Assembly (NCBI RefSeq): GCF_001050375.1
Contig: NZ_KQ130482.1
Location: 1-64,000, forward strand
Direction of reading: 5' to 3'
Length of the DNA: 64,000 bases
Origin: Catenovulum maritimum
GTDB taxonomy: Bacteria > Pseudomonadota > Gammaproteobacteria > Enterobacterales > Alteromonadaceae
In this document: one piece after another, positions 19,722-47,928 of the stretch
Numbering within the stretch: position 1 is the stretch's first letter
Layout: each line of letters starts with the position of its first letter
The notes under the pieces: generated by a model
Databases searched by the model: none
What the model was told of the DNA's origin: nothing
Seen by the model: only the letters and a program-made list of their open reading frames with translations
Program-made: the position numbers and the translations under genes

Positions 19722-20276
19722 ATGACAACTAACGCTATTACTAAAAAGAACACGACAACTCCAGCTGCGCTTTCTGATGCTTTCATAGCCTTATTCGAAG
19801 CGGATAGAAAGCGCATCTACACCTATATTTATGCTTTTGTCATGGATACTGATGAGGCTGATGAAATTTTTCAGGAAACCAGTGTTGTGTTATGGCGTGA
19901 TTTTGAAAAATTTGAAGAAAACACCAACTTTTCAAAATGGGCAAATGGCATCGTTTTTAACCGTATTTTATCTTATCGACGAAAAATAAAAAAACATGCG
20001 CTCTGTTTAAGTGATGATGTAACGCTAGAACTCGCAGCCAAAGTTTCTCAAACTGATAGCACGGATAGCCGCATAGAAGCTTTGCAAATATGCAAAGGTG
20101 AGTTAACTCCCACTCTGCAGCAACTGTATACCGAGTTTTACATTAATAACGCAACCGCCACTGAAGTCGCTAAAATGACTGAACGTTCTGTTTTCGCTAT
20201 TCGTAAATCGGTACAAAAACTCAGAAAAAAACTGTTTGACTGTATTGATCGTAAGCAACGGGAGATGCAACTTTGA
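19722..20276 (+). CDS. ECF-type RNA polymerase sigma factor
   Basis: 184 residues with sigma region 2 at about 24-90 (LFEADRKRIYTYIYAF, then DEADEIFQET and FSKWANGIVFNRILSYRR) and region 4 at about 125-178 (ATEVAKMTERSVFAIRKSV helix-turn-helix). Overall it resembles the small sigma-70 group common in Planctomycetes and Verrucomicrobia. It starts with ATG and its stop overlaps the TTG start of the next gene, so the two are translationally coupled. The role inferred is transcription of ulvan genes once the partner anti-sigma protein senses substrate. A paralogue lies at 44174. Confidence 0.88.
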   Translation: MTTNAITKKNTTTPAALSDAFIALFEADRKRIYTYIYAFVMDTDEADEIFQETSVVLWRDFEKFEENTNFSKWANGIVFNRILSYRRKIKKHALCLSDDVTLELAAKVSQTDSTDSRIEALQICKGELTPTLQQLYTEFYINNATATEVAKMTERSVFAIRKSVQKLRKKLFDCIDRKQREMQL

Positions 20277-21949
20277 ACCGCAGTGATAAATTTGAGAAAA
20301 TTCGTAACATTGCCGACGCGATTTGTGCAAAAGAAGTTAACCCAGAACAGATAAATAACCTAGATAATCTGCTCCGTGGAGACCCTGACGCACAGCAATT
20401 TTATTACGATTACATTGAAATGCATATTCATATGAAGGCTGAAGTAGGCCCTTCAATGGAAGTGGTGCGCCGACGTCTGCAGGTAGATGAAGTTATATTC
20501 AGACCAAGCACCCATAATACTGAGAATCCTCAAATTGCAACGCCTACCACAACACTAAATCAGATAACGCATCATTCTGCGTCGCGCCGAGGCGTACCGA
20601 TAAAGTGGTTAATTATTTCTATTTTATTAACAGCAGCCATTGCTGCCGTTTTTGCGTTAGGGTTTTTACATAATGAAAAACAAGCAGGTGTAGCTGAGCT
20701 ATTTACTGAAGATGCTTTACGCATAGAAGGACAAGGAAAAATTGAATCTAATCGTATTTACCCGGGAATTTACTCGGCGATAAAACCTGTAACAATGATG
20801 TTAACTTCAGGAGAAGAGTTAACCCTAGCCAAAAATACATTTATAAAGTTATACAATAGCGCCGAAATTGAAATCATTAGAGGACATCTCTCTGTAAAGC
20901 AAGCTACCGGTAAAAATCTTATTTTTAATACCCCGAGTTTTACCTTGCATTCAGGAGGGGAGGAAATTTCTATTGATTTAACTAAACAGCAAGCCAAAGT
21001 GATTTCGTCTGGCACTGCTCATATACAACCTAAGCGCTGGCGCCCGAATCATTACTGGCCTTTTGAAAGCGACAGTGACCGTGTGGCTGATTATGCCGGT
21101 AATGCTTTCGGCATTTTAAGCACAGGGGTAACAAAAGTTAACGGGTTAGTAGGTAACAATGCATTTTTATTTAATAATAGTGCTAATGCCCGGATTAACG
21201 TGGGGAGTGGTGGTGGAACAGTACCTGCAACGGGTTCATTTTCAGTAATAGATGGTGTAACTATAGAAGCGTTAATTGTGCCGCACTTTAAAGGTCAGGA
21301 GAGTGTTACGGTTGATAATTATGTTCCTGAGCAAGATCAAATATTCAGGAAAGATCAAACAGATAAACATCACCGTATGTTGTTAAGTTTAAAAAATGCT
21401 AGACCTAACAGCCATATATGGCCTAATAATAAGATCAAGGGCAACACAATCGCTTTTGGCATGTATTTAATCGGTCATGGTTACCATACGTTACTTCTAC
21501 CATTAGATGGCAAACAAGGGCGTCCTTCCCTTAAGCAACTAAAAGATGGCAAAGCCCATCATGTTGTTGCCAGCTACGATGTGAGTACTGGCTTAAAAGC
21601 CATTTTTGTGGATGGCAAAATGCAAGCGTCTTATCAATACCCAAAGGGTACAAAAATGATAAGTGGCGGTTCAGGTATGGCGAATATTGGTAATTCACCC
21701 AATAGAAAAGATGATAGAGAGGCTTATGCTGGCATTATTGATGAGGTCGCTTTTTATGATTTTGCTCTGCCGCCTTATATGATCAAGCAACATTACGAAG
21801 CGGCAATGAAAGGTAAAAATTACTTTAATGTTAATTTAGCCGATGGGTCTTTGCCACTGAATATCAATATTCCAATACCAGAAAACGAAGTCGTTTATAT
21901 TGACTCTCAAACAGGGCTTATTAATCGAACCGAGCCTATTGCTCAATAG
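20273..21949 (+). CDS. Membrane anti-sigma (FecR-like) protein with LamG sensor domain
   Basis: 558 residues. The N-terminal 75 residues are a short cytoplasmic anti-sigma-like domain (DNLLRGDPDAQQFYYDYIEM), one transmembrane helix spans about 112-132, and a FecR-like beta domain covers about 140-245. A LamG/concanavalin-like domain fills about 258-510 (HYWPFESDSDRVADYAGNA, DGVTIEALI, ASYDVSTGLKAIFVDGKM, IIDEVAFYDFALP). The start codon is TTG in a TTGA overlap with the sigma stop; GGGAGA sits 8 nt upstream. The architecture suggests a membrane protein that holds the sigma factor and exposes a glycan-binding-type fold to the periplasm. The sensing role is inference. Confidence 0.8.
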   Translation: MNRSDKFEKIRNIADAICAKEVNPEQINNLDNLLRGDPDAQQFYYDYIEMHIHMKAEVGPSMEVVRRRLQVDEVIFRPSTHNTENPQIATPTTTLNQITHHSASRRGVPIKWLIISILLTAAIAAVFALGFLHNEKQAGVAELFTEDALRIEGQGKIESNRIYPGIYSAIKPVTMMLTSGEELTLAKNTFIKLYNSAEIEIIRGHLSVKQATGKNLIFNTPSFTLHSGGEEISIDLTKQQAKVISSGTAHIQPKRWRPNHYWPFESDSDRVADYAGNAFGILSTGVTKVNGLVGNNAFLFNNSANARINVGSGGGTVPATGSFSVIDGVTIEALIVPHFKGQESVTVDNYVPEQDQIFRKDQTDKHHRMLLSLKNARPNSHIWPNNKIKGNTIAFGMYLIGHGYHTLLLPLDGKQGRPSLKQLKDGKAHHVVASYDVSTGLKAIFVDGKMQASYQYPKGTKMISGGSGMANIGNSPNRKDDREAYAGIIDEVAFYDFALPPYMIKQHYEAAMKGKNYFNVNLADGSLPLNINIPIPENEVVYIDSQTGLINRTEPIAQ

Positions 21950-21960
21950 TTAACCTGATG

Positions 21961-26961: not shown

Positions 26962-29900
26962 TTAAAAGTTATAGCTAAGGCCTAAAGAAAAAATGCGACC
27001 TTGGAATCGAATACGGTTGATAGCGCTTGTGTTACCCCCGATGAATTCGTACTCCTTGCGATTGTTAAGGTTATAGCCTTTTACACTAACTCTTAGATTT
27101 CTCGATAATTTATAGCCGACAGAGAGATCGATACGACCTCCAGCAGTTTGAGTACGGGCGTCGCTTCCTAAAAAGGTAGTCGTCCCGCCAGTGCTTAGCA
27201 GTTTTTGGTCTTGCCAGTTGTAGGTTAATCGAAGGCTTAAACCATCATTTTCGTAGTAACCAATGAAGTTAGCTGTATATGGGGCGATCTTGGTCATTTT
27301 CTGCCCTTCACCTTCATCCAACTCAACCTTACTAAAGTTCAACTTACCGCCAAGACCGTTGAACGGATAAGGCAAGAAGTCGAGTTTTTGCTGGATAGAA
27401 AGCTCATAACCCATAACCTCTACAGGTATATCACTGTTATAAGTTTCTGTAATACTTACCCTGCGGGTGTTTTCCATATCTGGCGCCGGTTCGATTTCCT
27501 CACAGTACCAACCTATTGATTTAGTACTATCAGGAACTCGAATTAGCTCACCTACAGGGTAGTCATGCTCACCTTCAGGGCAAACAGTACCCGTTTGAAT
27601 CTTGCCCTGGAGTTTTTTATAGAAAACACCAGCGGAAATAGATGAACCTTCACGGTTATACCAAGCTAAAGCGAAGTCAAAGTTATCAGCCGTATATGGC
27701 AAAACCTCAGCCTTCGAGTTTTCCAAGTTAACCCTAGTCTCTGTATTCGTATTAATTGGGCTAGGTATCTGTGACAACAGATTTGGTCGTACCAGTCCTT
27801 GCGAGTAAGCCGAACGTAAAACAACATCATCCGTTAGATCAACAGCAATATTGAATGAGGGTAAAGTATGTGAGTAGTCATTTTCGGTGATAACAGCAAC
27901 TCGTTTTCCATCCGAGTTAAAGCCTTGACCAATAACATCATTTGTTGTTTCTGTGTATCTAACCCCCATGTTACCTGAATAAGAAAAGTTAAATAGTTCA
28001 CCTTCAAAATTAGCCATTAAATAAATGGCATTAATAACTTGATCAGCATTAAAGTTTTTACGGAAGTTAGCGTTCATGCCATAGGTAGGCAAGGTTGAGT
28101 TATTTTCAATTTTATCCGCCCAATTAGTAGGACGAGCAATCGCAAAATCTTTTACAAACTCTCCACTATCTTTGTCAAAAGCAATCATGGCACTCGGATC
28201 ATCAATAAGTACAACTTGGCCGTCCTCTTCATACAGGTAGCCTGGTGTACAAGTTTCCTCGGGTTGACCTTGACATGTCTCGTAACCATAACCAGTTTGC
28301 AGTTTTTCAGTTAAATGCTTTGAATTCAGTACTTTCCAGCCACCATCAGATCCATAGTAACCAGGGAAAGTTCCATTAAAGAATTCGTTTTGGGTGTCGG
28401 AGGTTAAGCCCGTATAGAAGTCATCGCCAGTGATCCGTGACATGTTAATGGCACCACCACCAATGCGTGAGCTAACAGAATCCAAGTACTCACGGGAATG
28501 TGATAAACCAGATTTAATGCTCGTTATCAAGAATGAATCGTTGCCGATTTCGGTATAACGCTCAAAGTCTGCAAGAGCAGACTTATAGTTACGCTCTGGT
28601 CGTTCGACAGCACCGTTGATATAAAAACTAAGTGATCTGCCACCTTCTTCAAAGTCGCTATTTTGGTCTTTCATGTACGCATAGTATGCATCCTTGCCGC
28701 CTAGAGCTTCATAAGCGGCGTCACTGGCTGGATTCACTTTGGGGTCTAATTCAGGACCAAAACTACCTAAATTTGTGCTATACCAACCATTATCAAACCG
28801 TTTGTATGCATCTCGTCCGAGGTCATGTGCCTCACCTACTAACACCCTATCTAGTGGCACACCATTGCTGTCAATGGCGCCAACCCTGTCAAAATCAGAG
28901 TAAAAATAGTCATTAAAGTTTTCCAGAGTAGTCAGCGCTTTGCTCAAGTCGCCTTGGCCTGTATTAATTTCAGCATTCATGCCTGTAGGCGCATAAAAAT
29001 ATTTTTTGCCATCATCTAAGTCAGTATAGGTTTTGTTAGTACGGTTTTGGTGGCGTAAATCGATGCCCGCCATCCAAAAATTATTGACTGAACTTGATTT
29101 ACTTGCAGCAAGGTTTATTACCCAATCATCAGTAACATAGTCAGCATATAAAAATATACCTTTTGCTTCTTGTGTCGTTTCGTTCTGACGATTGGAAGGT
29201 GACCATGCAACGTTTTTAAGCTTAGTATGTGTGACTGCATAAACAGGTATCGTTGCCATATCCGGGCTATGAACCCCTTCTATGTAGTTAGGGTTTGGTT
29301 CTGCCGTTAAGCGGATCGGAGTGCCGAGTAATTCCACTCTTTGTGATGCAAATAATCCGTTATTATCATCTCCGCTGATCGAAAATTGTACATCTTCCAT
29401 GTTACTATCATTAAGGTTTTTCTTGGTATAAAGGAAGTTAGCACCAAGCTTGAGCGACTCTGTAGGTTTCCATTCAATATTACCCGTAGCTGATACACGA
29501 TTACCTCGTGAATGCTCTGTTACCTCACTTGCTTTACCAACAGCTTTAATAATCGATAGTGGTTCGGTAATGCCATATTGCGCTTTATAGGCCTCTAAAT
29601 CTGTCGGGCTGATAAATGTTTTGTAATCAATGGCATTATTCTCTACACCGTTCATTCCGACGTATGAAGAGAAATTCGTTGTATCACGACGGAACACTTG
29701 TTCTGAAGCAGCAATTTTAAAAGCCACAGCTAATTTGTTTTTGATAAGGTGCTTAGATGCTGAAAAGTTGATCGTCTTATTCCAGTCATCGACTAGCTCT
29801 TCATAACGGCCGCCTATGCCGAGTTTATACTTTCCGTCCTTTGTACCAAGCGCGCGTTGAAGTTTTTTGTTAATAACACCAGATAAACCACCATCAGGTA

Positions 29901-30414: not shown

Positions 30415-30748
30415 TTTTTTATCCGCTTTGTTGTTCTTAATTTTAAAAAGACGGAGTTGACTTGTATTTTGAATATTTTGTGTTCGTTCAACATAATCAA
30501 CACACACATCTCCCGGCAAATAAGCCTTATTGGTATTACTAAAAAACATTACTTTTAAAATTCATATAAGTAGAAATGCTTTTTCAAAACACCACTATTT
30601 GCTTATGTGTTTATGCAAGTTACTTCAGGTAACAAACAATAACGGAGCAAATAGCGAGTAAATAAGAGGCAAAGTAAAACCATAACGATTTAGTTAGGCC
30701 TAAGGTTTTCACCACCAACTTACAAACACAGAAGAGGCCGATTTTTTC

Positions 30749-30767
30749 AAAACTTGATACCTTTAAA
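30749..30767 (-). promoter_or_regulatory. Possible G-run motif, copy g (degenerate)
   Basis: The minus strand reads TTTAAAGGTATCAAGTTTT, keeping GGTATCAA but with A in place of the first Gs. It faces the TonB-receptor gene 335 bp away. Confidence 0.25.
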
Positions 30768-31393: not shown

Positions 31394-31408
31394 GGGGGTA
31401 TCAATATT
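31394..31408 (+). promoter_or_regulatory. G-run regulatory motif, copy b
   Basis: The site reads GGGGGTATCAATATT, 140 bp upstream of the 31548 gene and pointing toward it. It is nearly identical to copy a. Confidence 0.5.
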
Positions 31409-31547
31409 GACGTAATAGAGCCTTTTCTAAGTCAAAGTTAAAAACTCATTAACTAGAAGATCAATGTACTTGGTTCAAGTTATTTCGAAACACTGAAAAT
31501 AAAAATAATGAAGAAATTAATCACTTACAGAAAAGGTAATTTGATAC

Positions 31548-34225: not shown

Positions 34226-36593
34226 GCCTTCCTCTGAACCATTACAGCATCCAATAATCTATACCACTGACAGTGAACGCTCGTTAATGCTAGAAAAAAT
34301 TGAAAAATATGATTGGGCACAAAATGTATTTCAACATTTAAAACAAACTGTCGATGCCAAAATAGCGATTCATAGCGCTAACCCTGAAGCTATTATTAAT
34401 GCCATTCCCGAACTAGCTTCAGATAGTCATGGCTCTGGCGGAGCCGATAAGGCGGCTAGTCTTCACCAGGAGGTTCTTGCGACAGCGCGTAATGCAGCCA
34501 CGCTCTACTATTTAACCCGTGAAACTAAATATGCAAAGTATGGCGCTGATATATTTCAAGCCTATATTGAGCGTTTAGGGCCTTTAAGCCCACAGACGAC
34601 CTCAATCTCGGGCGATGTATTTTACGATGCTAGAGCAGGTTATCCCGCGCTGGCACTTACCTATGATTTTCTTTATCACTATCTCAATAGCTCAGGAACT
34701 AAAGTTTATAGTAAAAAAAAGGACACGAATATTCCGTTTGATAATGACCTTGCTCAAAAGGCCATGACCAATATGGTTGGTAATGTTCTGCAAGAATATG
34801 GCAAACCAGATAGGCACGGCCGCGTGGTTTCTAATCACCCAATATTAACCGCCACTGGCGCATTGTACACGATTCTTTGTATTGACGACCAAGATGAACG
34901 CAACCGCTTGTTTGAAGTGTTTTGGGAAACGGGTACTTTCCATCAATCTTCGTTTACTAAAACCATTCTGCCAATTTTTGGCGAACAAGGTATTTGGCCT
35001 GAATCGCTTAGCTATAGTTTTATGGGTAATATTAGTCAGATTTTAAATATTGTTGATCGCATTTACCCTGAAATGGATGTGACTCAAGAGTATAAAAACA
35101 TTCTCGAAGGCAACTTCCTGTTTGATTACTTGCGTAGCCCGAATCGTATTTTTGTCCGCTTTGGAGATTCAAAACGCTACAACGATAGTACCGGACAGCT
35201 TTATCTTTACACCTTAGATATTGCTAAACGAAAAGGTTATACCGAGTTAGCTCAAAAAGCACAGCTCGCCCTTAAACAAGCAAGCGATGCTAAAGGTGGT
35301 CAATTACCGACGTTGAAAGAGTCAACTTTTGGGACCGACCACAGCTTAAAACTTTTTTGGGGACAGCCATTATCGGAGCAATTAGAGGGCTCAATCGACT
35401 TCGAAAAACCGACCGTAATAATTGAACACGCCGGTGTTGCACTGCAACGTAACTCTGTGGCAAACAACAATGTTGATTATGGACTGACAGGTATTATTGG
35501 TGGCGCTCATTATGTGCATTCTCATGCTACCGGAATTTCAATGGAGCTGTACGGCGCCAATTACTTTATGGCGGCCAATGGTGGTATGCCAGTGTCGGTA
35601 GCTGATCGAAAGCTTCCAGAACACGCTGAATATTTCCGTTTGTATGCTGGCAATAATACAGTGGTTGTAAACGGCACTTCTCACGGTAAACAACCTGGCT
35701 CTTGGACTAGTAATGGTTACCTCTGGCAAGACACCTCCAAAAATATTGCCGCTGAACCAGCGCACCTTCAAGATCCCATTAATCCTAACTATAGTTTCGC
35801 TACGCAACGACTTGACGACACAGTTAACAATGCAGAGCAAGAGCGAACTTTAGGTATTATTCGTACTAGTGAGAAAACGGCCTTCTATTTCGATATGTTC
35901 CGTTCGCGTTCACTTGGCGACAATAAATTTCACGACTATATCTACCATAATATTGGCGATGAAACGGTTATATCTGATCACACAGGAGAGTTGTCGCTAA
36001 CGTCAACAGATCGCTACGATAATGACATAGACGACCCTGTTGGCTCGCCTGGCTGGCGTTTTTTTGAACAAGAACAGGTAACAGCGCCAACAACATCAGC
36101 GGTCAATATTCAGTTCAAACTTCATCATAATCAACGTTCAATGAATCTTTTTGTGCCGGACGGTGTAGAGCGTGAATACACTTATGCACTTGCACCAGCG
36201 ACCCGTGAAGCAAAAAATGGCTACGTCAAGAAGAAAACCCAAACTATCGCCATTCGCCAGCAGGGTGAAGCATGGGAGCGTCCGTTCATTGCGGTACTAG
36301 AGCCATCAACAACATATCAATCTAGCGTGACTTCAGTAACGCAACTCAGCCAAGACGGACGTGTTGTCGGCGCGAAAGTGGTTTCCAATGTAAACGGAAA
36401 CGAAATTATAAACTACATTATTAATCACGACGACCCGAAAGCCACTTATAACAACAATGCGTTAGGCCTTAGTTTTACTGGCCGTTATGCGGTAGTAACC
36501 GATCGCGGTGGCGACGATGTTGAACTTTATATTGGGGAAGGTACTCAACTTCAATATGGCAAACACCATGCTAGCGCCGGTTCAAGCGATTAG
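33573..36593 (+). CDS. Ig-modular lipoprotein with heparinase II/III-like lyase domain
   Basis: 1006 residues with lipobox LLTSAC followed by a Gly-rich spacer. Two Ig-like modules (about 38-130, 130-220) precede an (alpha/alpha) toroid at about 225-600 (DARAGYPALALTYDFLYHY, NHPILTATGAL) and a beta-sandwich C-terminal region. The motif HYVHSHATGISMELYG resembles the conserved His block of heparinase II/III proteins. This fold occurs in alginate, heparin and some ulvan lyases (PL40 is one ulvan candidate) and in an ulvan oligosaccharide dehydratase, so either activity is possible. Compared with the upstream gene it keeps the same N-terminal modules and swaps the catalytic part. The RBS is weak. 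Confidence 0.8.
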   Translation: MNIKILAYTALTLLTSACGGGGGSEDGSNKGKETEEVIVNQQGTIAISGALEFGANLEAKITDPDGITNISNATYQWQRNAVDIAGANSNSYTLTMADFNQVLNIKVTYVDDKGFSNSLTSLQTAKVPAIDFIGTLSIKGKAEQGQTLNVELLDDNGIDLNQAIFTWFTDDSVINGQTKQALTLTPELVGKTISVQVNYTDQHGFNDTLTALQTIAVAPSSEPLQHPIIYTTDSERSLMLEKIEKYDWAQNVFQHLKQTVDAKIAIHSANPEAIINAIPELASDSHGSGGADKAASLHQEVLATARNAATLYYLTRETKYAKYGADIFQAYIERLGPLSPQTTSISGDVFYDARAGYPALALTYDFLYHYLNSSGTKVYSKKKDTNIPFDNDLAQKAMTNMVGNVLQEYGKPDRHGRVVSNHPILTATGALYTILCIDDQDERNRLFEVFWETGTFHQSSFTKTILPIFGEQGIWPESLSYSFMGNISQILNIVDRIYPEMDVTQEYKNILEGNFLFDYLRSPNRIFVRFGDSKRYNDSTGQLYLYTLDIAKRKGYTELAQKAQLALKQASDAKGGQLPTLKESTFGTDHSLKLFWGQPLSEQLEGSIDFEKPTVIIEHAGVALQRNSVANNNVDYGLTGIIGGAHYVHSHATGISMELYGANYFMAANGGMPVSVADRKLPEHAEYFRLYAGNNTVVVNGTSHGKQPGSWTSNGYLWQDTSKNIAAEPAHLQDPINPNYSFATQRLDDTVNNAEQERTLGIIRTSEKTAFYFDMFRSRSLGDNKFHDYIYHNIGDETVISDHTGELSLTSTDRYDNDIDDPVGSPGWRFFEQEQVTAPTTSAVNIQFKLHHNQRSMNLFVPDGVEREYTYALAPATREAKNGYVKKKTQTIAIRQQGEAWERPFIAVLEPSTTYQSSVTSVTQLSQDGRVVGAKVVSNVNGNEIINYIINHDDPKATYNNNALGLSFTGRYAVVTDRGGDDVELYIGEGTQLQYGKHHASAGSSD

Positions 36594-36644: not shown

Positions 36645-39512
36645 ATGATCACCAGACGACGGTTTATCGTAGGCAGTACCACCGCCCTAGCCGCATCTAC
36701 TATTGGTTTTAATTTACTGATGGCAAAACCGTCAGATAATAGTGCGGTTAGTGTGCAATTACCTGCTGACGCTTTAGATAACATTCACCCAGTCAATTTA
36801 AAGTGTGAATACCTAAACAATCCTGAGGGGGTTGATATAGTCAACCCTCGCTTTTATTGGCAATTAGCTTCTACCGAAACGGATCAATATCAAACCCGTT
36901 ATCAATTGCTGGTTGCTAGCTCACCAGCGACATTAAACCGCAATATGGGTGATATTTTTGATTCGGGAATTGTCAGCAGTGATAGTAATACTCACGTTGT
37001 TTATCAAGGCGAACCTTTGCAAGCTGCAACCAATTATTATTGGAAAGTACGCGTTTGGGACAAAAACCAACAAGTATCAGCTTGGAGTGAATCGGCCCAG
37101 TTTTCTACCGGTTTATTCACCGAACAAGACTGGCAAGACGCACAATGGGTTGCATGGAAAACCCAGCAGGATTGGGAAACTAATTGGTGGCAGCGCAAAG
37201 CTATTGAAGAGCAAACCCATCAAATTAGTTTACCCTCGTACTTTGGCGCACGCATGTCATTATGGGAGCGCTCGCTGTTTCATTATGCCAACCCTTATGA
37301 TCCATCGCCTTTGGTTCGAAAAGAATTTAGCGCCACTAAAACGATTAAATCAGCCAAGGCTTTTATCGCCGGTATTGGTTACCACGAACTGTATCTAAAC
37401 GGTGAAAAAGTCGGAGACCATGTGTTAGACCCTGGCTGGACTAACTACGCTCGCTCAATCCTTTATGTGACCCACGATGTAACGGACTTAGTCAAACAAG
37501 GTAAAAATGCGGTCGGCGTGATGCTTGGCCGTGGTAACTATGGTTTATTGGCCAACGATCACTGGGGGTTTTGGAAAAAGGGTGGCTATATAGGTCAGCC
37601 AAAATTAAAGTGTTTAATCAAAGTCATTTACGCCGATAACAGCGAACAAATAGTTGTTAGCGACTTAAGTTGGAAAGTCACGGGCGGTCCAGTCACTTAT
37701 GATTGTCCACATATGGGTGAAATTTACGACGCCACCCAAGAAGTTGACGGTTGGAGTGATATCGGACTAGACGATTCAAACTGGGATCCCGTTCAGCCCG
37801 CACCTGCTCCAGGCGGTAAATTAAAATCACAGTTATGTGAGCCAATACGCGTGGTGCAGACCAGTAGACCGGTAAAAATTAAAAATAAAGGTAAACGCTG
37901 GGGACAATGGGGAGATGCGGGCACCAACTTAGCAGGTTGGCTTCGTTTAAAAGTCAACGCGCCAAAAGGCACGCGGATTTTGGTTTATTTTGGCGAAAAA
38001 GAAAATGCCATGGATTTAGATCAACCCGGTGGGTTACAACAAATGGCCTACATCGCTAAAGGAGAGCCGGGTGAGATTGCCGAATGTCGATTTTCTTATA
38101 AGGGATTTAGGTACTTCATCATCCATGGACACGACAAACCCTTAACGGTTGATGATATTGAGATCTGTCAGGTCAATTCTGATGTTGCCTCTGTAGGAAC
38201 ATTTTTAAGTTCTGATGAAAGCCTGAACGCGATTCACCAAATTACCGACAAGGCGATGATTTCTAACCTGCACAGTATTCCTACCGACTGCCCACATCGC
38301 GAAAAAAATGGTTGGCTTGGCGATGCGGTAACAGGCCTTGAAATGGGCATGGCTAATTACGATTTAGCCGCCCTGACCACCAAGTTTATTCACGATATTT
38401 TTGATGCCCAACACCCTAAACATGGCGGTTTACCTAATTTTGTACCGAGCCGAGGTTACGGTAGAGGTGTCTCATCCTTGTGGGGATCGGCCTGTGTGTA
38501 TCTGCCTTATTATATGTATTGCTATTACGGTGATACCCGACTAATCGAACAATACTGGCGCGCAATGCTTCATTTTGCACAAAGTGTTTGGGCCATCACA
38601 GAGATTGAAGGCAAACCTGGTTTGCTCAAAGACCGGCTCTCAGATTGGTCTTCGCCCTTTGGCAACAAACCAGATGAGGGTGAAGAAGTGTATGCGACCA
38701 TGAACTTTTATCGGGTGCTGAGCTGTTTAGCTGAAATGGGTGCTGTCATCGGAAAGCAACATGATGTGGCGGCATTAGCGCAACAGCAAACTAAGCTAAA
38801 AGATGCTGTCTACAAACACTGTTTTGATCCACAAACTATCACCTTTAAAGGGGTAGACACTGATGAGTATCGACAAGGCCCGAATGCCCTTGCCCTGTTT
38901 ACCGACATTGTCAAACCTGAACATCGCGAGCAAGTACTTAAAGGTTTAATTCACGACATTAAGGTCAGTCGAGATAATCATATTTATGGCGGTATTTTTA
39001 CTGGTCATGCGTTATGGGAATTGTTGCCCAACGAGGGTTATTCAAGTTTGGCCTACCAGGTTGCGGTAAATGATTCTTACCCAAGTTATGGTTATATGCT
39101 TAAAAATGGCGCGACAACACTTTGGGAACACTGGCCTGATAAGTCGTCTCACATTCATTATTTTATGGGCTTTGTTGATAATTTTTTCCATCGTCACTTG
39201 GCTGGAATTAATTTTGATACTAAAACACCAGGTTTCAAACATATTCTGTTCAAACCGAAATTTATTGAAGAAATCGAATTTGCGAAAGCCAGTTATCGAT
39301 CGATTCACGGTGAAATAACAGCAGGCTGGCAAAGAACTAACAATGGCGATATTGAATACAGCGTCACTATTCCAACCAATTGCAGCGCTCAAGTGCTACT
39401 GGCAAGTGGTACGAGAAGCTTAACGTCTGGCAGCCATAAACTAACCATCAAACATTCAGATTTAATAGCTTCAAATTTATTTTTTTCTGATTTATTAGCC
39501 TCTGATTTATGA
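36645..39512 (+). CDS. GH78 alpha-L-rhamnosidase with Tat signal
   Basis: 955 residues. The start MITRRRFIVGSTTALAAS is a twin-arginine signal, so the enzyme is exported folded to the periplasm, unlike its Sec-lipoprotein relatives. The GH78 layout is complete: Fn3-like N-terminus (YQTRYQLLVASSPATL), sandwich with YHELYLNGEKVGDHVLDPG, barrel motif DCPHREKNGWLGDA from residue 548 (presumed acid Glu) and GATTLWEHW (Glu828, presumed base). AGGAAA lies 5 nt before the ATG. It follows the heparinase-like gene by 51 bp and precedes another GH78. A relic of its 5' end lies 3.2 kb upstream. Confidence 0.88.
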   Translation: MITRRRFIVGSTTALAASTIGFNLLMAKPSDNSAVSVQLPADALDNIHPVNLKCEYLNNPEGVDIVNPRFYWQLASTETDQYQTRYQLLVASSPATLNRNMGDIFDSGIVSSDSNTHVVYQGEPLQAATNYYWKVRVWDKNQQVSAWSESAQFSTGLFTEQDWQDAQWVAWKTQQDWETNWWQRKAIEEQTHQISLPSYFGARMSLWERSLFHYANPYDPSPLVRKEFSATKTIKSAKAFIAGIGYHELYLNGEKVGDHVLDPGWTNYARSILYVTHDVTDLVKQGKNAVGVMLGRGNYGLLANDHWGFWKKGGYIGQPKLKCLIKVIYADNSEQIVVSDLSWKVTGGPVTYDCPHMGEIYDATQEVDGWSDIGLDDSNWDPVQPAPAPGGKLKSQLCEPIRVVQTSRPVKIKNKGKRWGQWGDAGTNLAGWLRLKVNAPKGTRILVYFGEKENAMDLDQPGGLQQMAYIAKGEPGEIAECRFSYKGFRYFIIHGHDKPLTVDDIEICQVNSDVASVGTFLSSDESLNAIHQITDKAMISNLHSIPTDCPHREKNGWLGDAVTGLEMGMANYDLAALTTKFIHDIFDAQHPKHGGLPNFVPSRGYGRGVSSLWGSACVYLPYYMYCYYGDTRLIEQYWRAMLHFAQSVWAITEIEGKPGLLKDRLSDWSSPFGNKPDEGEEVYATMNFYRVLSCLAEMGAVIGKQHDVAALAQQQTKLKDAVYKHCFDPQTITFKGVDTDEYRQGPNALALFTDIVKPEHREQVLKGLIHDIKVSRDNHIYGGIFTGHALWELLPNEGYSSLAYQVAVNDSYPSYGYMLKNGATTLWEHWPDKSSHIHYFMGFVDNFFHRHLAGINFDTKTPGFKHILFKPKFIEEIEFAKASYRSIHGEITAGWQRTNNGDIEYSVTIPTNCSAQVLLASGTRSLTSGSHKLTIKHSDLIASNLFFSDLLASDL

Positions 39513-39541
39513 GATTTAGGTTTTCAATAAAGGTTTATTAC

Positions 39542-42382
39542 ATGAAATATTTATCCATTGCCGCACTCGTTGTGCTCGTTGCAAGCGTATTACAAGCATG
39601 TGGGATCAATAAAACGGCTCAAGACCAAGGGTTACAATCGGCCACAGCCTTAAGAATTAATGAAGGTTTTAACAACCCTTTAGGTTTTTACGATCCCAAA
39701 CCAAATTTTTCATGGCAATTGGCATCTGATAACAGCACTTTAGCACAAACAAAATATCAAATTGTCGCTGCTAGTCAGCCAGATTTATTACCCAATCAGG
39801 CTGATCTTTGGGACAGTGGCATGGTGACTAGTGCGCAAAGCACCTTTGTTGATTACCAAGGTAAAACATTAGGTTCAAGGCAACAAGTATACTGGCAAGT
39901 GCGTTATTGGGATGAACAAGGAGAAGTATCAAGCTGGAGTGATGTTGCTCAATTTGAATTAGGTTTACTCTCTAATAACGATTGGTCGGCCAAATGGATC
40001 GAAATCAAACAAACAGCCCCCGTTAAACTAAATAATTACGGTACGCCGATTCATATTCCACAACATTTACGTACTGAGTTTGAGTTAAAAACGGCTAACG
40101 CAAGCACAAATACTGACAATACGAATATCAAAAAAGCAAGGTTATACATTACCGCAAAAGGAGTATTTGAAGCTTTTATCAATGGTCAGCGTATTGGCGA
40201 CGATATTTTAACACCAGGTTACACCCCTTATAAAAAACGCATTGAAACCCTCACCTACGATGTCACAGCACAATTACAAAATGGCAAAAATGCTTTTGGT
40301 ATTCAGCTAGCTGAAGGCTGGTATGCCGGCCGTTTTGGCCCTAAACGTCATTGGCATAAAAAATTAAGCCTCACCCCCAAAGTTTTAGCCCAACTTGAAA
40401 TTGAATATAACGATGGCCAGAAACAAACAGTGATCACCGATAACAACTGGCAAGCCACACAAAATGGCCCTATTCGTACCTCGGGTTTATACGATGGTGA
40501 ACGTTATGATGCCCACTATGAATTATTCGACCAAAACGTGGCTTGGCACCAAACCGGTTATAACGCATCAAACTGGGCAAACGTCACCACCAGCGAATTA
40601 GAGCCACAAGTGCTATTGCAACCGAAACGTCACTTTACTTCAAAAAATAAACTGCTATTACCTGCCCTTGCGATAAAACAAGTCGGTGGTAAAACCATCT
40701 TTGATTTAGGGCAAAACATGGTGGGCGTACCAAAAATTAAAGTGCCGATGAAAAAAGGCCAAACCCTGAATTTACGTTTTGGCGAAGGGGTCAATCCAGA
40801 CGGTTCGTTATTTATCAAAAACTTAGGCAGTGCCAAACAGTTAGATTTTTATACCGCCAAAACCGATGGCGTGATTGAGTGGCAACCACAATTCACCTTT
40901 CATGGTTTTAGATATGTTGAACTCAGCGGTTTTGACGCATCGGTTAAACCTGAGCTGTCGTGGATTACGGGTGTGGTGCAATACACTGATTTTGAACTAA
41001 ACGGTTCATTTGTCACTTCACATCCAGAGTTAAATCAATTCCAATCGAATATAGAATGGGGTTTAAAAGGTAACTTTTTAGATATTCCGACCGACTGCCC
41101 GCAACGCTCAGAACGTTTAGGTTGGACTGGTGATGCCCTCGCCTTTGCTCATACGTCTTTGTTTATTGCCGATAGTCATGCATTTTGGTCGGCTTGGTTA
41201 CAATCCATTCGGGAAGAGCAATTTGACGATAACAGTATTCCGGTTGTTGTGCCTAATGAAGTAGGAGAAATTGCCCAAGCAGGTTGGTCTGACGCGGCAG
41301 TGACCATTCCATGGGATGTCTACTGGCGTACCGGCGATAAAAAAATCTTAGCAGAAAACTACGAGATGATGACCCGTTGGATTAAGTATCACCAAACCCA
41401 ATTAAAAGATGGTGTTAGTGTCATGTGGACGGTTGGTGACTGGTTGCAACCTTATTCAACCAAAAAAGATTCTCGCCGTGGAGAAACCGATAATAGCTTA
41501 ATTTCTACCGCATTTTATGCACGTTCTGTGGAGTTCACCCGTAATAGCGCACAAGTGTTAGGTAAAACTGAGGATGTTAAAAAATACAGCCAGCTACTAA
41601 AACAAATTAAACACAACTTCCAAAATCACTTTTTTGATAACCATGGTCGATTAAAAGTGGGTATTCAAGCACAAACCGCCTATTTGTTGGCGTTAGGTTT
41701 TGATTTATTAGATAAAACCACGGCCGAAAAAGCGGTTCCGCATTTATTAAAAACCTTTGAAGCAGCCAACGGTCATTTACGCACTGGCTTTTTAGGCACG
41801 CCATTAATTGCACCAGTGTTAGATAAAATTGGCCGCGCCGATATCGCGTTTGACCTAGTGTTTAAACGAAGTTACCCGTCGTGGTTATTCTCAGTGACAC
41901 AAGGCGCAACAACGGTCTGGGAACGTTGGGATGGTTACACTCACGATAAAGGTTATGCTAAAAAAGCTGGATCGCTCAATCACTATGCCTATGGCGCTAT
42001 TGGTCAATGGTTATATGACAGAGTTGCTGGTATTAGCCCGTTAACTGCTGGGTATAAAACTATTCGCATTGCCCCCCTCATTTCAACACATTTAACATCT
42101 GCAGAAGGCAAATATAAATCACCATATGGCGAGATAAAGTCGAAATGGCAGTTCAGCAATGGTGTGTTAACTATGGAAGTCACCATTCCAGCAAACACAC
42201 AAGCACAGATTGAAATTCCTAAATGGCAGTATCAGCAAAATCAACAAAAAACTGCCTTAGGCGATCAACTCAGCATCAACGGCCAAGTATTAACAAACAA
42301 AGACACGAGCTGGATTGGAGAAACGAAAGAAGTTAAGAAGATCATCGTTAAATCGGGACACTATAAAATCCAAATTAAATAG
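39542..42382 (+). CDS. GH78 alpha-L-rhamnosidase lipoprotein
   Basis: 946 residues. The ATG at 39542 is preferred because AAAGG precedes it and the signal MKYLSIAALVVLVASVLQAC begins there; the open frame runs back to 39509, overlapping the previous stop. Motifs are DCPQRSERLGWTGDA from residue 518 (Ser where most have Asp, the Glu kept) and GATTVWERWDGY. It is closest to the 11630 gene (both have a shared RINEGF-NP-G-YDPKP-FSWQL opening). Lipid anchoring implies periplasmic or surface attachment. Its substrate is probably rhamnose-capped ulvan fragments. Confidence 0.87.
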   Translation: MKYLSIAALVVLVASVLQACGINKTAQDQGLQSATALRINEGFNNPLGFYDPKPNFSWQLASDNSTLAQTKYQIVAASQPDLLPNQADLWDSGMVTSAQSTFVDYQGKTLGSRQQVYWQVRYWDEQGEVSSWSDVAQFELGLLSNNDWSAKWIEIKQTAPVKLNNYGTPIHIPQHLRTEFELKTANASTNTDNTNIKKARLYITAKGVFEAFINGQRIGDDILTPGYTPYKKRIETLTYDVTAQLQNGKNAFGIQLAEGWYAGRFGPKRHWHKKLSLTPKVLAQLEIEYNDGQKQTVITDNNWQATQNGPIRTSGLYDGERYDAHYELFDQNVAWHQTGYNASNWANVTTSELEPQVLLQPKRHFTSKNKLLLPALAIKQVGGKTIFDLGQNMVGVPKIKVPMKKGQTLNLRFGEGVNPDGSLFIKNLGSAKQLDFYTAKTDGVIEWQPQFTFHGFRYVELSGFDASVKPELSWITGVVQYTDFELNGSFVTSHPELNQFQSNIEWGLKGNFLDIPTDCPQRSERLGWTGDALAFAHTSLFIADSHAFWSAWLQSIREEQFDDNSIPVVVPNEVGEIAQAGWSDAAVTIPWDVYWRTGDKKILAENYEMMTRWIKYHQTQLKDGVSVMWTVGDWLQPYSTKKDSRRGETDNSLISTAFYARSVEFTRNSAQVLGKTEDVKKYSQLLKQIKHNFQNHFFDNHGRLKVGIQAQTAYLLALGFDLLDKTTAEKAVPHLLKTFEAANGHLRTGFLGTPLIAPVLDKIGRADIAFDLVFKRSYPSWLFSVTQGATTVWERWDGYTHDKGYAKKAGSLNHYAYGAIGQWLYDRVAGISPLTAGYKTIRIAPLISTHLTSAEGKYKSPYGEIKSKWQFSNGVLTMEVTIPANTQAQIEIPKWQYQQNQQKTALGDQLSINGQVLTNKDTSWIGETKEVKKIIVKSGHYKIQIK

Positions 42383-42449: not shown

Positions 42450-43895
42450 ATGATTCAAAACAAACTGAACGCTTTTAGTAAAGTGTTCAAGATTCAACAA
42501 GTAATGGCAGCAGCCTTATGCACAACAGTGCTAGCATTAACGTCAGCTTGTTCATCACTCTCAACCAACGCAGATGCGGCAGCACCTTCGGTAGCCAAAG
42601 ACACACCGCCTAATATCTTACTGATATTATCTGACGACCACGCATGGAGTGATTATGGTTTTATGGGGCACGAAATTGTCAAAACCCCAGCACTCGACAA
42701 ACTTGCCCATGAAGGCGTCACGTTTAAACGTGCTTATGTACCTACGTCACTTTGCCGCCCTTCGTTAGCCACCATAGCTACAGGTTTATATGCTTCTCAA
42801 CACAGTATTACAGGTAACGGTCCTTCCAAAAAAGTACCCGGTGGTAAAAAGGGTGAAAAATACGCTCAATTACGCAAACAGATCATCAGTAAAGTAGATA
42901 AATTAGATACTTTACCGGAATTATTAAGAGCAAAAGGCTATGTTTCACATCAATCAGGTAAATGGTGGGAAGGTAGCTTTAAGCGTGGCGGTTTTGATCA
43001 AGGTATGACCCAAGGTTTTGGTAATCATCCTCAAGGACGTCACGGTGATGTCGGTTTAAAAATTGGACGCAAAGGGTTGGCACCAGTTACAAACTTTATT
43101 GATGAAGCAGTTGCCGCAGGCAAACCATTTTTAGCTTGGTACGCGCCATTTATGCCGCATACACCACACACGCCGCCAGAACGGATTTTAAAGAAATACA
43201 CAAACAAAGGGTTAGCTTTACCTATCGCTAAATATTACGCTATGATCGAGTGGTTTGACGAAACCAACGGTGAATTATTCGATCATCTTGAGAAAAAAGG
43301 CATAAAAGACAACACACTTATTGTCTATGTTTCTGATAATGGCTGGATAACTAACCCTAAACAAACAGACCGTTTTTTACCGCTGTCAAAACAAAGTCCT
43401 GCAGAAAGCGGTGTCCGTACCCCGATCATGTTCTCGCTACCAAGCAAATTTAAGCCACAAATGCGTCCCGAATTAGTTAGTAGTATAGATATTGTCCCAA
43501 CTATTTTGGGCGTTGCTGGCGTAGAAGTACCAGCAGGATTACCGGGTAAAAATTTATTTGCTAACATGGTGAATGAAACGCCCCTCGATCGTAATGAAGT
43601 CTACGGTGAAGGCTTTTCTCATGATATGACAGATATTAACGACATTGAATCTTCATTATTGTACCGCTGGGTGATTGAGGGTGATTGGAAACTTATTTTA
43701 AGTTACGATGGCGTAAACGAAAGTTATCAGGAGCATCACGCTGTCGATCGTCAAGGCCCACGTTTATACAAGGTATCAACTGACGAGTATGAGCAAGTAA
43801 ACTTAGCCAAGCAACACCCAGAGATAGTCGAACGTTTATCGCAAAAATTAGTTGACTGGTATCCTCTGCACAAACGTAAAATTCTTCAAAAATAA
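42450..43895 (+). CDS. Sulfatase (S1 family) with atypical C-R-P-S-L active site
   Basis: 481 residues with lipobox LTSAC near residue 34. The alkaline-phosphatase-fold start NILLILSDDHAWSDYG carries the metal-binding DD pair, and DNTLIVYVSDNGW the second metal site. The formylglycine motif is C102-R-P-S-L, keeping Cys and Pro but with Leu where C-x-P-x-R has Arg. KAKGYVSHQSGKWWEG supplies a Lys and His. It probably removes sulfate from rhamnose-3-sulfate or a related unit of ulvan. AAAGG precedes the ATG. It is the last gene of its operon, 14 bp before the terminator. The family call is firm; regiospecificity is unknown. Confidence 0.88.
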   Translation: MIQNKLNAFSKVFKIQQVMAAALCTTVLALTSACSSLSTNADAAAPSVAKDTPPNILLILSDDHAWSDYGFMGHEIVKTPALDKLAHEGVTFKRAYVPTSLCRPSLATIATGLYASQHSITGNGPSKKVPGGKKGEKYAQLRKQIISKVDKLDTLPELLRAKGYVSHQSGKWWEGSFKRGGFDQGMTQGFGNHPQGRHGDVGLKIGRKGLAPVTNFIDEAVAAGKPFLAWYAPFMPHTPHTPPERILKKYTNKGLALPIAKYYAMIEWFDETNGELFDHLEKKGIKDNTLIVYVSDNGWITNPKQTDRFLPLSKQSPAESGVRTPIMFSLPSKFKPQMRPELVSSIDIVPTILGVAGVEVPAGLPGKNLFANMVNETPLDRNEVYGEGFSHDMTDINDIESSLLYRWVIEGDWKLILSYDGVNESYQEHHAVDRQGPRLYKVSTDEYEQVNLAKQHPEIVERLSQKLVDWYPLHKRKILQK

Positions 43896-43908
43896 CAAGT
43901 TATCATCT

Positions 43909-44118: not shown

Positions 44119-44132
44119 TTAATATATATTAA
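44119..44132. promoter_or_regulatory. AT palindrome before the second sigma gene
   Basis: TTAATATATATTAA is a perfect 14-bp palindrome 41 bp before the sigma start codon, and a similar ATATATTAA lies at 44152-44160. It could be an operator or just an AT-rich promoter. Confidence 0.3.
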
Positions 44133-44173
44133 TAATCACCAAATTTTTAACATATATTAATTTAGGCTGTACG

Positions 44174-44752
44174 TTGCAATCAATTTCCACTCAGAAAAAT
44201 CAGCAGTTAGACACCACTGATGCAGAAGCACTACGCTCATCAAAATTTGGTCAATTGTTTGAAGCAGATAGAAACCGACTTTACACGTATATTTATGCGT
44301 TTGTATCTAATCACAGTGCTGCTGACGACATTTTTCAAGAAACCTGTTTGGTCCTTTGGCGAGAATTTGATAAATTCGAAATCGGTACAGAATTTTCTAA
44401 ATGGGCAAACGTGATTGCATTTAACAGGGTAAGGCACTACCGCCAAGCTCAAAAAAAGTATCAATTGGGATTGAGTGACGATTTCATTGAAGAATTCAGT
44501 CAAAACATCACAATCACAGAAAACCAGACTGTTACGCAAGAAGAAAAATGGCGCTATTTAGAACATTGCTGCTCATTACTGTCAGAGCCATTGAAAAAAA
44601 TATACCAAAATTTTTATGTAGATAAATTATCGGCCAAAGACCTTGCCGAAACCACTGGAAGATCCATTCATGCTATCCGTAAGTCCGTGTTTAAATTACG
44701 TAAAAAATTGTTTGATTGTGTTGAACAGAAATTACGAGAGGCATCAAAATGA
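44174..44752 (+). CDS. ECF-type RNA polymerase sigma factor (second copy)
   Basis: 192 residues and clearly paralogous to the 19722 gene. Region 2 (LFEADRNRLYTYIYAF, ADDIFQETCLVLWREF, FSKWANVIAFNRVRHYR) and region 4 (AKDLAETTGRSIHAIRKSV, FKLRKKLFDC) are intact. The only start in the frame before region 2 is TTG, with a weak AGG 9 nt upstream, so translation may be low. The stop overlaps the partner ATG (ATGA, 44749-44752). It probably controls part of the ulvan locus with its partner. Whether the two sigma factors have separate targets cannot be seen here. Confidence 0.85.
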   Translation: MQSISTQKNQQLDTTDAEALRSSKFGQLFEADRNRLYTYIYAFVSNHSAADDIFQETCLVLWREFDKFEIGTEFSKWANVIAFNRVRHYRQAQKKYQLGLSDDFIEEFSQNITITENQTVTQEEKWRYLEHCCSLLSEPLKKIYQNFYVDKLSAKDLAETTGRSIHAIRKSVFKLRKKLFDCVEQKLREASK

Positions 44753-46368
44753 GCACAAGTGAGCAATTTTCAGAAGTCAGAGCTATTGCTGATTTAGTAT
44801 GTTCTGATTGTGCAACACAGGAGCAACTAGAACAGCTAGAACAGCTCTTGCGAGGAAATCCAGCTGCACAACAATTTTATTACGACTACCTCAGTATGCA
44901 TATGCAATTGCAATCCCCCACTGATAACAGCATGGAATTTATCTACCGCAGAATATCAGAAGAGTTTGTTGTGCGCCAAAGAGATGCTGCGCCGCCTAAT
45001 GGGCCTAACAACACCTTTGATAATGATCATGGAAGTAAATATTTTCGAAACAAAGCAACAATAATATTTAGCATACTTCTATTAGTTTGCACACTGGTGA
45101 GTATCTGGTGGTTCTCGTTTCGCAGTGACTCTAGCCATGTAGCAAAATTAGTGCAAGGCGTTGTCACGCCAATGGGGCGACAAGCCAATATCGAGGGAGA
45201 CTATTTATTAACAGGCGATTATCAAGTTGTACAAGATGCATCGTTAGAAATGACCGATGGCAGCTTGCTCCATCTCAGTGCGAACTCAGTTATAAAATTA
45301 TTTAATCATAATGAAATAAAACTTAAGCTGGGTAAAATCGTTGTTGAGCCAGGCTTGAACAAAAACCTTACTGTACATGGTAAAAAAGCTATCATGCAAT
45401 CAAATGGTAGTGGCCTAACATTTGATTTAACCCATAATCGACCTAGGTTAACCACAGGAAAAAATACTGGCATGACTCCGTTACGTTGGCGTCCAATACA
45501 TTACTGGGGATTTAACGAGGTAGGTGATCGAGTGGTAGACACTGCAGGTAATGCCCATGGTATTCCAGCAAATGGCGCTACCAGAATACAGGGCAAGATT
45601 GGCCAAGGCGCATTTGCATTTGCTAACAGCGAAGACGCTAGAGTCACGCTTGGCAATGGCGGCGGCACAGCGCCAGACACAGGCTCCTTTGCGGTACATG
45701 ATGGCGTTACCATTGAAGCCTTGATCAAACCTGATTTTACCGGAGAGTTAGATAATGTAGATACAATATTTCACAAAGCACACGGAAAATCTGATCATAA
45801 AGTCACATTAAGTTTGCAGAATGATAGCAACAATGATGTTCCAAAATCGAAAGAAACATACAATAAAAGTTTAAATTTTGGCCTGTTTATACTGGGTCAA
45901 GGCTACCATGAACTCAAACTGCCGCTAGATGGCATCGCAGGTAGGCCTAGCATTAGTGATATAAAAGATAATAATTATCATCACATTGTCGCTAGCTACA
46001 ATGTACAAACAGGTTTAAAAGCCATATATATTGATGGCAAACTTCTGGCATCGCGCCAATATCCTGCTGGCTCAAGAGTAATCTCTGGTGGTCCTGGTAC
46101 TGCAACTGTGGGAAATAACTCGGCCCAAGGGCGATGGCAACAAGAGGCTTACTCAGGGGCCATTGATGAATTAGCTTTTTACGATTACGCGCTGCCTGAA
46201 TTTATGGTTAAGCAACACAATGACCACATAAACCAAGGCTTAAATTATTTTGGCTTACCAGCTAATATCAAAGCACTACCTGAGCGACCTAGATTACGTT
46301 TACCAACAAATACAACGTTTGAGCTCGATTTCGTTACTGGCCTACCGAGTAAGGTTATCAGTGACTAA
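44749..46368 (+). CDS. Membrane anti-sigma (FecR-like) protein with LamG sensor domain (second copy)
   Basis: 539 residues with the same order as the first copy: N-terminal anti-sigma-like segment (EQLLRGNPAAQQFYYDYLSM), a transmembrane helix at about 105-124, a FecR-like beta region to about 235, and a LamG domain at about 245-490 (HYWGFNEVGDRVVDTAGNA, DGVTIEALI, ASYNVQTGLKAIYIDGKL, AIDELAFYDYALP). ATGA coupling to the sigma gene implies 1:1 production. The sensor half differs more from the first copy than the LamG core motifs do, so a different ligand is possible. It ends before a strong bidirectional hairpin. Confidence 0.8.
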   Translation: MSTSEQFSEVRAIADLVCSDCATQEQLEQLEQLLRGNPAAQQFYYDYLSMHMQLQSPTDNSMEFIYRRISEEFVVRQRDAAPPNGPNNTFDNDHGSKYFRNKATIIFSILLLVCTLVSIWWFSFRSDSSHVAKLVQGVVTPMGRQANIEGDYLLTGDYQVVQDASLEMTDGSLLHLSANSVIKLFNHNEIKLKLGKIVVEPGLNKNLTVHGKKAIMQSNGSGLTFDLTHNRPRLTTGKNTGMTPLRWRPIHYWGFNEVGDRVVDTAGNAHGIPANGATRIQGKIGQGAFAFANSEDARVTLGNGGGTAPDTGSFAVHDGVTIEALIKPDFTGELDNVDTIFHKAHGKSDHKVTLSLQNDSNNDVPKSKETYNKSLNFGLFILGQGYHELKLPLDGIAGRPSISDIKDNNYHHIVASYNVQTGLKAIYIDGKLLASRQYPAGSRVISGGPGTATVGNNSAQGRWQQEAYSGAIDELAFYDYALPEFMVKQHNDHINQGLNYFGLPANIKALPERPRLRLPTNTTFELDFVTGLPSKVISD

Positions 46369-47899: not shown

Positions 47900-47928
47900 T
47901 TTCAATATCTATATATACAAATTTTATA

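Follow-up and report, generated by a model that had tools for sequence, protein, structure and literature searches.

The window analysed here, which comprises the first 64,000 nucleotides (nt) of contig NZ_KQ130482.1 from Catenovulum maritimum, carries two gene pairs, each made up of an extracytoplasmic function (ECF) sigma factor gene and a gene for a membrane protein that joins an anti-sigma-like N-terminus to a LamG domain. These pairs lie among genes for ulvan lyases and rhamnosidases, and a promoter sequence shared by loci of this kind suggests that they switch on genes for consuming the green-seaweed polysaccharide ulvan. In the original prediction, the partner proteins were proposed as sensors that could perceive ulvan fragments directly, without a receptor relay.

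Two ECF sigma/LamG pairs in an ulvan locus

The two pairs consist of the following genes:

19722..20276, plus strand: ECF sigma factor of pair 1 (184 amino acids; clade I; recognition helix RSVFAIRK)
20273..21949, plus strand: membrane anti-sigma-like/FecR-like/LamG protein of pair 1 (558 amino acids)
44174..44752, plus strand: ECF sigma factor of pair 2 (192 amino acids; clade II; recognition helix RSIHAIRK)
44749..46368, plus strand: membrane anti-sigma-like/FecR-like/LamG protein of pair 2 (539 amino acids)

As had been claimed, each sigma gene overlaps its partner gene, by 4 nt in both cases. The two sigma factors are 48% identical to each other and the two LamG partners 39% over 551 columns; the pairs fall in two separate clades of the LamG-protein tree and are therefore not the product of a recent duplication. 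The LamG model PF13385 assigns both partners to its family (40.6 bits for pair 1 and 45.6 for pair 2, cut-off 27.6). AlphaFold models, built with 32 and 30 sequences from the window and its relatives, reached mean pLDDT values of 84.9 and 84.2 and present the same order in both proteins. Three helices at the N-terminus are followed by a linker of low confidence, a single membrane-type helix (residues 100-124 and 110-134, respectively), a beta region at the place of FecR, and a LamG jelly roll. The predicted anti-sigma-like N-terminus, single membrane helix and fused LamG fold were thus borne out, whereas the FecR-like region was recovered only as this beta region: PF04773, whose cut-off is 24 bits, reached 17.9 in the pair 2 partner and was not listed for the pair 1 partner in the Pfam scan. 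Among the six paralogues in the genome, only the copy on contig C36 exceeded that cut-off (27.5 bits), and the FecR label for the window partners is weak by sequence. A Foldseek search with the pair 2 model matched jelly-roll domains, such as AbnA domain 4 (TM 0.72 by target). Functional assignment from this search was discarded, as the top rows were an arabinanase, neurotoxin binding domains and pentraxins, with TM of 0.24-0.34 by query length, indicating a generic jelly roll. Across eight LamG proteins, mean pairwise identity was highest in the LamG domain (0.59), followed by the N-terminal helices (0.48), the FecR-like region (0.33) and the membrane helix (0.19); strong conservation of LamG is what a sensor for a constant ligand should show.

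The best family model for both window sigmas is TIGR02989, Sig-70_gvs1 (E 9.5e-35 for pair 1 and 4e-36 for pair 2), in keeping with the proposed resemblance to Planctomycetes and Verrucomicrobia systems, but their scores of 119.9 and 124.3 bits stay narrowly below the curated cut-off of 124.55 and leave both just outside the family; the paralogous sigmas on contigs C36 and C19 exceed it with 127.9 and 125.5 bits. Both window sigmas belong to the ECF superfamily by TIGR02937 (54.9 and 70 bits, cut-off 42.9), and they match region 2 (PF04542) above and region 4 (PF08281) below the respective cut-off.

The genome of this strain (G000; 4.55 Mb, 47 contigs) holds six full-length LamG proteins of the family, each adjoining a sigma gene. 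Relatives were collected by scanning a species-genome collection with two peptide patterns, so that relatives lacking these patterns were missed. The scan returned 51 loci, comprising 24 from Alteromonadales, two from Lentisphaerota, 11 from Planctomycetota or unnamed kin, one from Verrucomicrobiales and 13 weak LamG matches that were excluded from later counts; membership of the order was checked for the Alteromonadales loci. Six full pairs in the genome, together with a sigma gene immediately preceding the LamG gene in all 24 Alteromonadales loci, show that the arrangement is not a chance one. Of the 14 loci from other phyla, six have a related sigma gene immediately before the LamG gene, several of the remaining loci ending at contig ends, and all four scanned sigmas among those six pass the TIGR02989 cut-off. 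Fusion, pairing and ulvan setting can be read directly from the sequence.

The nearest relatives outside Alteromonadales come from Lentisphaerota (38-44% identity), followed by a 174-residue piece from Verrucomicrobiales (47%) and by Planctomycetota proteins (27-41%). The original prediction took the resemblance to suggest transfer and proposed a sigma tree to examine it. In that tree, the single Lentisphaerota row lies among gammaproteobacterial rows without a resolved position; the LamG-protein tree puts Lentisphaerota beside the gammaproteobacterial clade (support 94/98 for that clade and 86/86 for the joint clade). Distribution within the host's own family is sparse, with the LamG protein present at E 1e-40 in only 7 of 196 sampled genomes. 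Relatives of the pairs are carried by the ulvan plasmid of Alteromonas sp. 76-1 (pAlt76) and by a plasmid of C. adriaticum, and a Paraglaciecola and another Alteromonas (L052 and L058) have LamG proteins very near the pAlt76 version, whose short branches in the tree suggest recent movement. LamG-only fragments of the family also occur on Alteromonas macleodii plasmids (L034 5983-6366), with transposase genes near in one that was inspected, and a decayed C-terminal fragment of a seventh LamG family protein, interrupted by two stop codons, lies at the contig start (window 172-462). The same genome contains a second, distant class of ECF sigma and FecR-LamG genes (L025 10085-12242 and L026 9999-12112), in which FecR is above cut-off and sulfatase genes are near, and a third class (L027 6992-9465), in which the membrane protein next to the sigma gene gives no LamG match in its outer part, again with sulfatase genes near. 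From the third-class locus, the outer domain of the membrane partner seems to be exchangeable.

The window is an ulvan utilisation locus with one PL24, two PL25 and one PL40 lyase, each of which has a match to an ulvan lyase of solved structure (E 4e-95 to 2.5e-179), and the ulvan setting assumed for the pairs is thereby upheld. The surrounding genes are:

712..3099, plus strand: GH78-like rhamnosidase, probable target (PF17389, E 5.9e-28)
15922..19191, minus strand: PL24-type ulvan lyase, probable target (6byp, E 2.5e-179)
26962..30549, minus strand: TonB-dependent receptor (plug and barrel found; STN domain not found)
31548..33395, plus strand: polysaccharide lyase, PF14099, probable target (solved relative not found)
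33573..36593, plus strand: PL40-type ulvan lyase (Uly1040, E 4.1e-95)
36645..39512 and 39509..42382, plus strand: two GH78 rhamnosidases
42450..43895, plus strand: sulfatase
46457..47905, minus strand: PL25-type ulvan lyase (5uam, E 1.9e-163)
50358..51827, minus strand: PL25-type ulvan lyase, probable target (5uam, E 1.2e-129)
52446..53309, plus strand: polysaccharide lyase-like, probable target (PF14099)

The PL24 lyase additionally bears Ig-like domains and a long Pro-Glu-Thr repeat tail. Relatives of the GH78/GH106 genes of the window lie within 10 kb of the pair in 21 of 24 Alteromonadales loci (exceptions L042, L045 and L048). Among the 14 loci from other phyla, many with short flanks, no such relative lies within this distance. 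In the genome of this strain, five of the six pairs have one of 12 GH78 genes at a distance of 10 kb or less, compared with a random mean of 0.19 and no equal among 20,000 draws. Proximity to sulfatases is weaker (three of six pairs, reached in 612 of the 20,000 draws); contigs of unknown extent are handled approximately in this random placement.

A promoter-like element ahead of ulvan genes

Pair-bearing loci share an ECF-type promoter consensus, GGGTATCAAT-N15/16-CTNNTC, which was found by inspecting shared words other than A/T runs in the upstream regions of 31 gammaproteobacterial loci, the window included. In full, it reads GGGTA(T/G/C)(C/T)A(A/G)T-N15/16-CTNNTC, frequently followed by TTA, and forms a directional element of two blocks. 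When the gap was widened to 11-16 nt, 28 sense and 14 antisense matches were obtained, the latter in shared divergent regions, against none in 50 shuffles; counts of exact 5+4 and 5+5 words showed no excess over shuffles. With the strict gap of 15/16, 19 of the 31 loci together contain 28 sites, at a median of 90 nt ahead of the start codon, five near-identical loci contributing one site each. The window contains the following sites:

609..639, plus strand: putative promoter of GGGTATCAAT type, 103 nt ahead of the GH78-like gene 712-3099
19449..19480, minus strand: putative promoter of GGGTATCAAT type, 289 nt ahead of the PL24 gene 15922-19191 and divergent from the sigma gene of pair 1
30731..30761, minus strand: degenerate copy GGTATCAAG, outside the strict set, ahead of the TonB-receptor gene 26962-30549
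31396..31427, plus strand: putative promoter of GGGTATCAAT type, 152 nt ahead of the lyase gene 31548-33395
51858..51888, minus strand: putative promoter of GGGTAGTAAT type, 61 nt ahead of the PL25 gene 50358-51827
52249..52279, plus strand: putative promoter of GGGTAGTAAT type, 197 nt ahead of the PF14099 lyase-like gene 52446-53309

The lyase gene at 31548-33395 possibly heads a row of genes extending to 43895 behind the promoter at 31396. Within 400 nt of sigma genes, a strict element was found on the gene's own strand in 0 of 34 cases and on the other strand in 7 of 34, and sigma supply therefore seems not to be self-amplified. Read in the wrong direction, as AAAAGGC-N14-TTGATACC, the motif would suggest that the sigma gene is preceded by a site for its own regulation; this version was rejected because the reverse-read strict elements sit 47-330 nt (median 90) ahead of genes on the coding strand and because of the same absence of own-strand sites at sigma genes.

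For counts within and across genomes, a looser pattern with the wider gap was compared with a reversed control. The genome of this strain yielded 15 matches against one control, five of them inside the window, which represents 1.4% of the genome. Thirteen of the 15 are intergenic and lie 41-289 nt ahead of a gene on the same strand, and the two within coding sequence are the two with deviant spacing. Behind the 13 intergenic elements are 11 genes for lyases, glycoside hydrolases, BNR_4 proteins (taken as ulvan-lyase type) or sulfatases, one DUF7133 gene and one gene without a match. Both the location of the pairs in ulvan loci and the identity of this gene set speak against a role as ordinary envelope-stress systems with no part in ulvan use, an explanation that draws on the fact that many ECF sigma factors are stress regulators and that we regard as very improbable. 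Strict sites numbered 29 in 717 kb, whereas pair-free stretches gave none in 141 kb of the same genome (a control that omits the C1, C10, C12 and C23 stretches with elements but no close pair, L030 and L088-L092), none in 154 kb of Planctomycetota LamG surroundings and none in 222 kb of unrelated loci. At C1:75505-77661 and C10:80856-101558, elements of the GGGTAGTAAT, GGGTAGCAAT and GGGTATCAAT types stand ahead of genes for lyases, hydrolases and sulfatases, and the 20 kb on either side hold no pair of the family.

Across the 196 genomes of the host's family, the seven with the LamG protein total 52 sites against 10 controls, and the other 189 average 2.08 against 2.07, which is the level of chance (rank test, p 1.8e-4). 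The two element-richest genomes, G000 (15) and G049 (13), both hold the LamG protein. Four of the seven (G085, G158, G177 and G089) were recognised by coordinates as the genomes of loci L033, L047, L035 and L052; together with G000 they account for 35 sites against 7 controls. The two that lie outside the derivation loci add 17 against 3 (G049, 13 versus 1; G164, 4 versus 2). Ten gammaproteobacterial genomes of the derivation loci, two of which are G158 and G177, gave 58 matches against 27 controls. A spacing of 31-32 nt, for which chance would give one third, was seen in 13 of 15 matches in the genome of this strain, 41 of 58 in these gammaproteobacterial genomes, 9 of 10 in Lentisphaerota and 3 of 8 in Planctomycetota.

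Lentisphaerota genomes played no part in the derivation of the element. The two that hold LamG-protein relatives gave 10 matches, nine of them correctly spaced, against 6 reversed controls, and all eight elements examined are intergenic and 60-103 nt ahead of a gene. In a Pfam scan, the genes behind these eight elements were four sulfatases, two with cytochrome c and DUF7133, one of PSCyt/PSD type and one with a 3-keto-disaccharide hydrolase domain and cytochrome c. Protein, sigma factor and element therefore co-occur in two phyla, an association that is legible in the genomes themselves. No such carriage of the element was found for Planctomycetota, with 8 matches against 9 controls in four genomes with distant relatives, nor in 11 loci of that group. 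DUF7133/cytochrome c genes follow the element in the genome of this strain (L088 3702-6308) and in both Lentisphaerota genomes (L095 313-2772 and L098 474-2933), the two Lentisphaerota genes matching DUF7133 weakly, above cut-off. They were considered as a close homologue shared under the element; this was dismissed, as blastp gave no match between the DUF7133 gene of this strain and the Lentisphaerota genes.

The −35 box tends to vary with a residue of the sigma recognition helix. In single-pair loci, scored at the residue following RS[IVLF] and with the near copies L052, L053 and L058 and the two-sigma loci (window, L043 and L054) left out, His accompanies a non-TCAA −35 box in seven of seven loci, whereas Phe, Tyr, Pro, Arg or Ile accompanies TCAA in 17 of 19, L023 and L044 being the exceptions. 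The association has a Fisher p of 5.5e-5 overall and of 0.003 within clade II (7/7 versus 2/9), values that are uncorrected for kinship and rely on −35 labels assigned by hand after the data had been seen. The two-sigma loci are suggestive of the same matching: of the boxes in the window, with a Phe and a His sigma, four read TCAA (one being degenerate) and two read GTAA, and L054, also with Phe and His sigmas, has one TCAA and two GCAA boxes. The link is held as a lead, on which pair 1 would use the GGGTATCAAT variant and pair 2 the GGGTAGTAAT variant.

Such element data could also be produced by another regulator of ulvan genes, whose operator or promoter the GGGTATCAAT element would be, with the sigma pairs as passengers in the same loci. 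Element and pairs do occupy the same gene clusters, some elements are far from any pair, and a DeoR-type regulator gene is present in the window. However, the directional two-block structure with near-constant spacing resembles ECF promoters, the element tracks the pair in the family genomes (a partly independent comparison) and in Lentisphaerota, the −35 variant tends to follow the recognition-helix residue, and a relative of the DeoR gene is near only 2 of the 32 gammaproteobacterial pairs tabulated. Overall, we judge this account improbable.

Proposed mechanism and its standing

Taken together, these data make it probable that each pair combines a single-protein glycan sensor with a sigma factor of its own, acting on GGGTATCAAT-type promoters of ulvan genes. 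The ECF sigma factor would be held in the cytoplasm by the N-terminal helices of the membrane protein. Ulvan-derived oligosaccharides bearing rhamnose and sulfate would enter the periplasm and be bound by the LamG domain, and binding would free the sigma factor, either through proteolysis or through a change transmitted along the membrane helix. According to one report, proteolysis acts on the anti-sigma factor RsgI (PMC12203970). RNA polymerase carrying the released sigma factor would then initiate at GGGTATCAAT-type promoters of lyase, rhamnosidase, sulfatase and perhaps uptake genes.

Several observations weigh against this mechanism. Some LamG folds have proteins or lipids as ligands, and others have no ligand at all. 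The class I anti-sigma domain is described as consisting of four helices (PMC7406223), but the models contain three confident helices followed by a low-confidence stretch, and a fourth is not seen in them. The strict site is missing in 12 of the 31 gammaproteobacterial loci and the strict −35 box in 4 of 31, and elements also stand in clusters without a nearby pair (C1:75-78 kb, C10 and C23). Five of the seven pair-bearing genomes in the host's family supplied derivation loci, which makes that test only partly independent, and one of them, G089, has no excess (4 versus 4). No excess was seen either in three of the ten source gammaproteobacterial genomes (G204, 2 versus 6; G205, 1 versus 4; G210, 4 versus 3); at L038, the locus of G205, the −10 block is CTAAGTC, outside the search pattern. 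As for the residue/−35 rule, it is broken by its two exceptions, and doubt attaches to two of the His loci, to L047 because its boxes read TCAG and to L041 because its two boxes differ in kind. Scoring L047 against the rule raises p to 0.0008 overall and 0.04 in clade II, and scoring both against it raises p to 0.006 and 0.13.

What the LamG domain binds is the point on which the strongest alternative turns. The pairs might control ulvan genes while LamG contacts, in place of ulvan, a partner protein at the surface or a receptor, through which the signal would be relayed. LamG folds are often protein-binding, a receptor relays the signal in proteobacterial FecR systems, and a TonB receptor gene is present in the window. 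Fec and Bacteroidota ECF/FecR systems depend on a TonB receptor with an STN domain. A scan of the genome with PF07660 gave two STN matches, one above and one below cut-off, both in proteins that we take, from their sequence, to be of the secretin type, and found no STN-bearing TonB receptor. A Fec-type relay is therefore unlikely, in agreement with the predicted absence of a receptor relay. In addition, a relative of the window receptor lies within 10 kb at only 13 of the 32 gammaproteobacterial pairs tabulated. Relay by a partner protein thus appears unlikely, and direct glycan sensing remains the preferred interpretation.

A broader hypothesis is advanced more tentatively, as something possible but short of probable. 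The pairs may represent a family of stand-alone sulfated-glycan sensors, with LamG on the anti-sigma factor and a dedicated promoter, and the sensor/sigma/promoter module may have been transferred between Lentisphaerota and Alteromonadales. Where a locus holds duplicated pairs, they might respond to different ulvan fragments and avoid cross-talk by matching the recognition-helix residue to the −35 box, with GGGTAGTAAT or GGGTAGCAAT for His and GGGTATCAAT for other residues. The regulator, its promoter sequence and a list of targets are now testable in culturable strains. Moreover, the sigma/−35 pairs form a natural set in which the evolution of ECF specificity can be studied, and glycan-responsive circuits could draw on a lectin-type sensor module.

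Comparison with known systems

The FecI/FecR/FecA system and the ECF/FecR glycan systems of Bacteroidota resemble the window pairs in placing an ECF sigma factor beside a FecR-like membrane protein at uptake or polysaccharide loci. They differ in their STN-bearing TonB receptor, of which none was found in this genome, and the Bacteroidota sigma model TIGR02985 gives the window sigmas only 49.2 and 60.5 bits, far below its cut-off of 126.4. The TIGR02989 sigmas of Rhodopirellula and Verrucomicrobium are closer, as theirs is the top-scoring model for both window sigmas, although these copies fall just short of a cut-off that two others in the genome pass.

Plasmid pAlt76 of Alteromonas sp. 76-1 has a relative of the pair (LamG protein 43% identical) beside two rhamnosidase genes, with the same element ahead of one of them. 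In the text of the paper describing this plasmid, FecR and LamG do not appear and 'sigma' occurs only in a supplier's name (PMC6431674). In the literature on gammaproteobacterial ulvan use, as far as it was consulted, no such regulator is named, and a search for ulvan together with anti-sigma returned nothing; a sigma group number or notes on Planctomycetes LamG partners may exist in print.

A precedent is offered by the SigI/RsgI systems of Clostridium thermocellum. Published accounts describe paralogous pairs of sigma and membrane anti-sigma factors, the outer part of the latter often being a carbohydrate-binding module (PMC4711584), that activate promoters of polysaccharide-degrading genes (PMC4711584, PMC12203970), with SigI being a non-ECF sigma factor that autoregulates (PMC4711584). 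The window pairs share the paralogous sigma/membrane anti-sigma arrangement. They differ in having an ECF sigma factor, a three-helix N-terminus and a FecR-like region with LamG, and in sigma genes that lack the promoter element in front; no match to the RsgI N-terminal domain was listed by Pfam for the window partners at E up to 10. RsgI already provides an example of an anti-sigma factor with a carbohydrate-binding module, and the window pairs depart from it in their ECF sigma factor, in the FecR-like/LamG build, in the element, and in their ulvan context and phyla.

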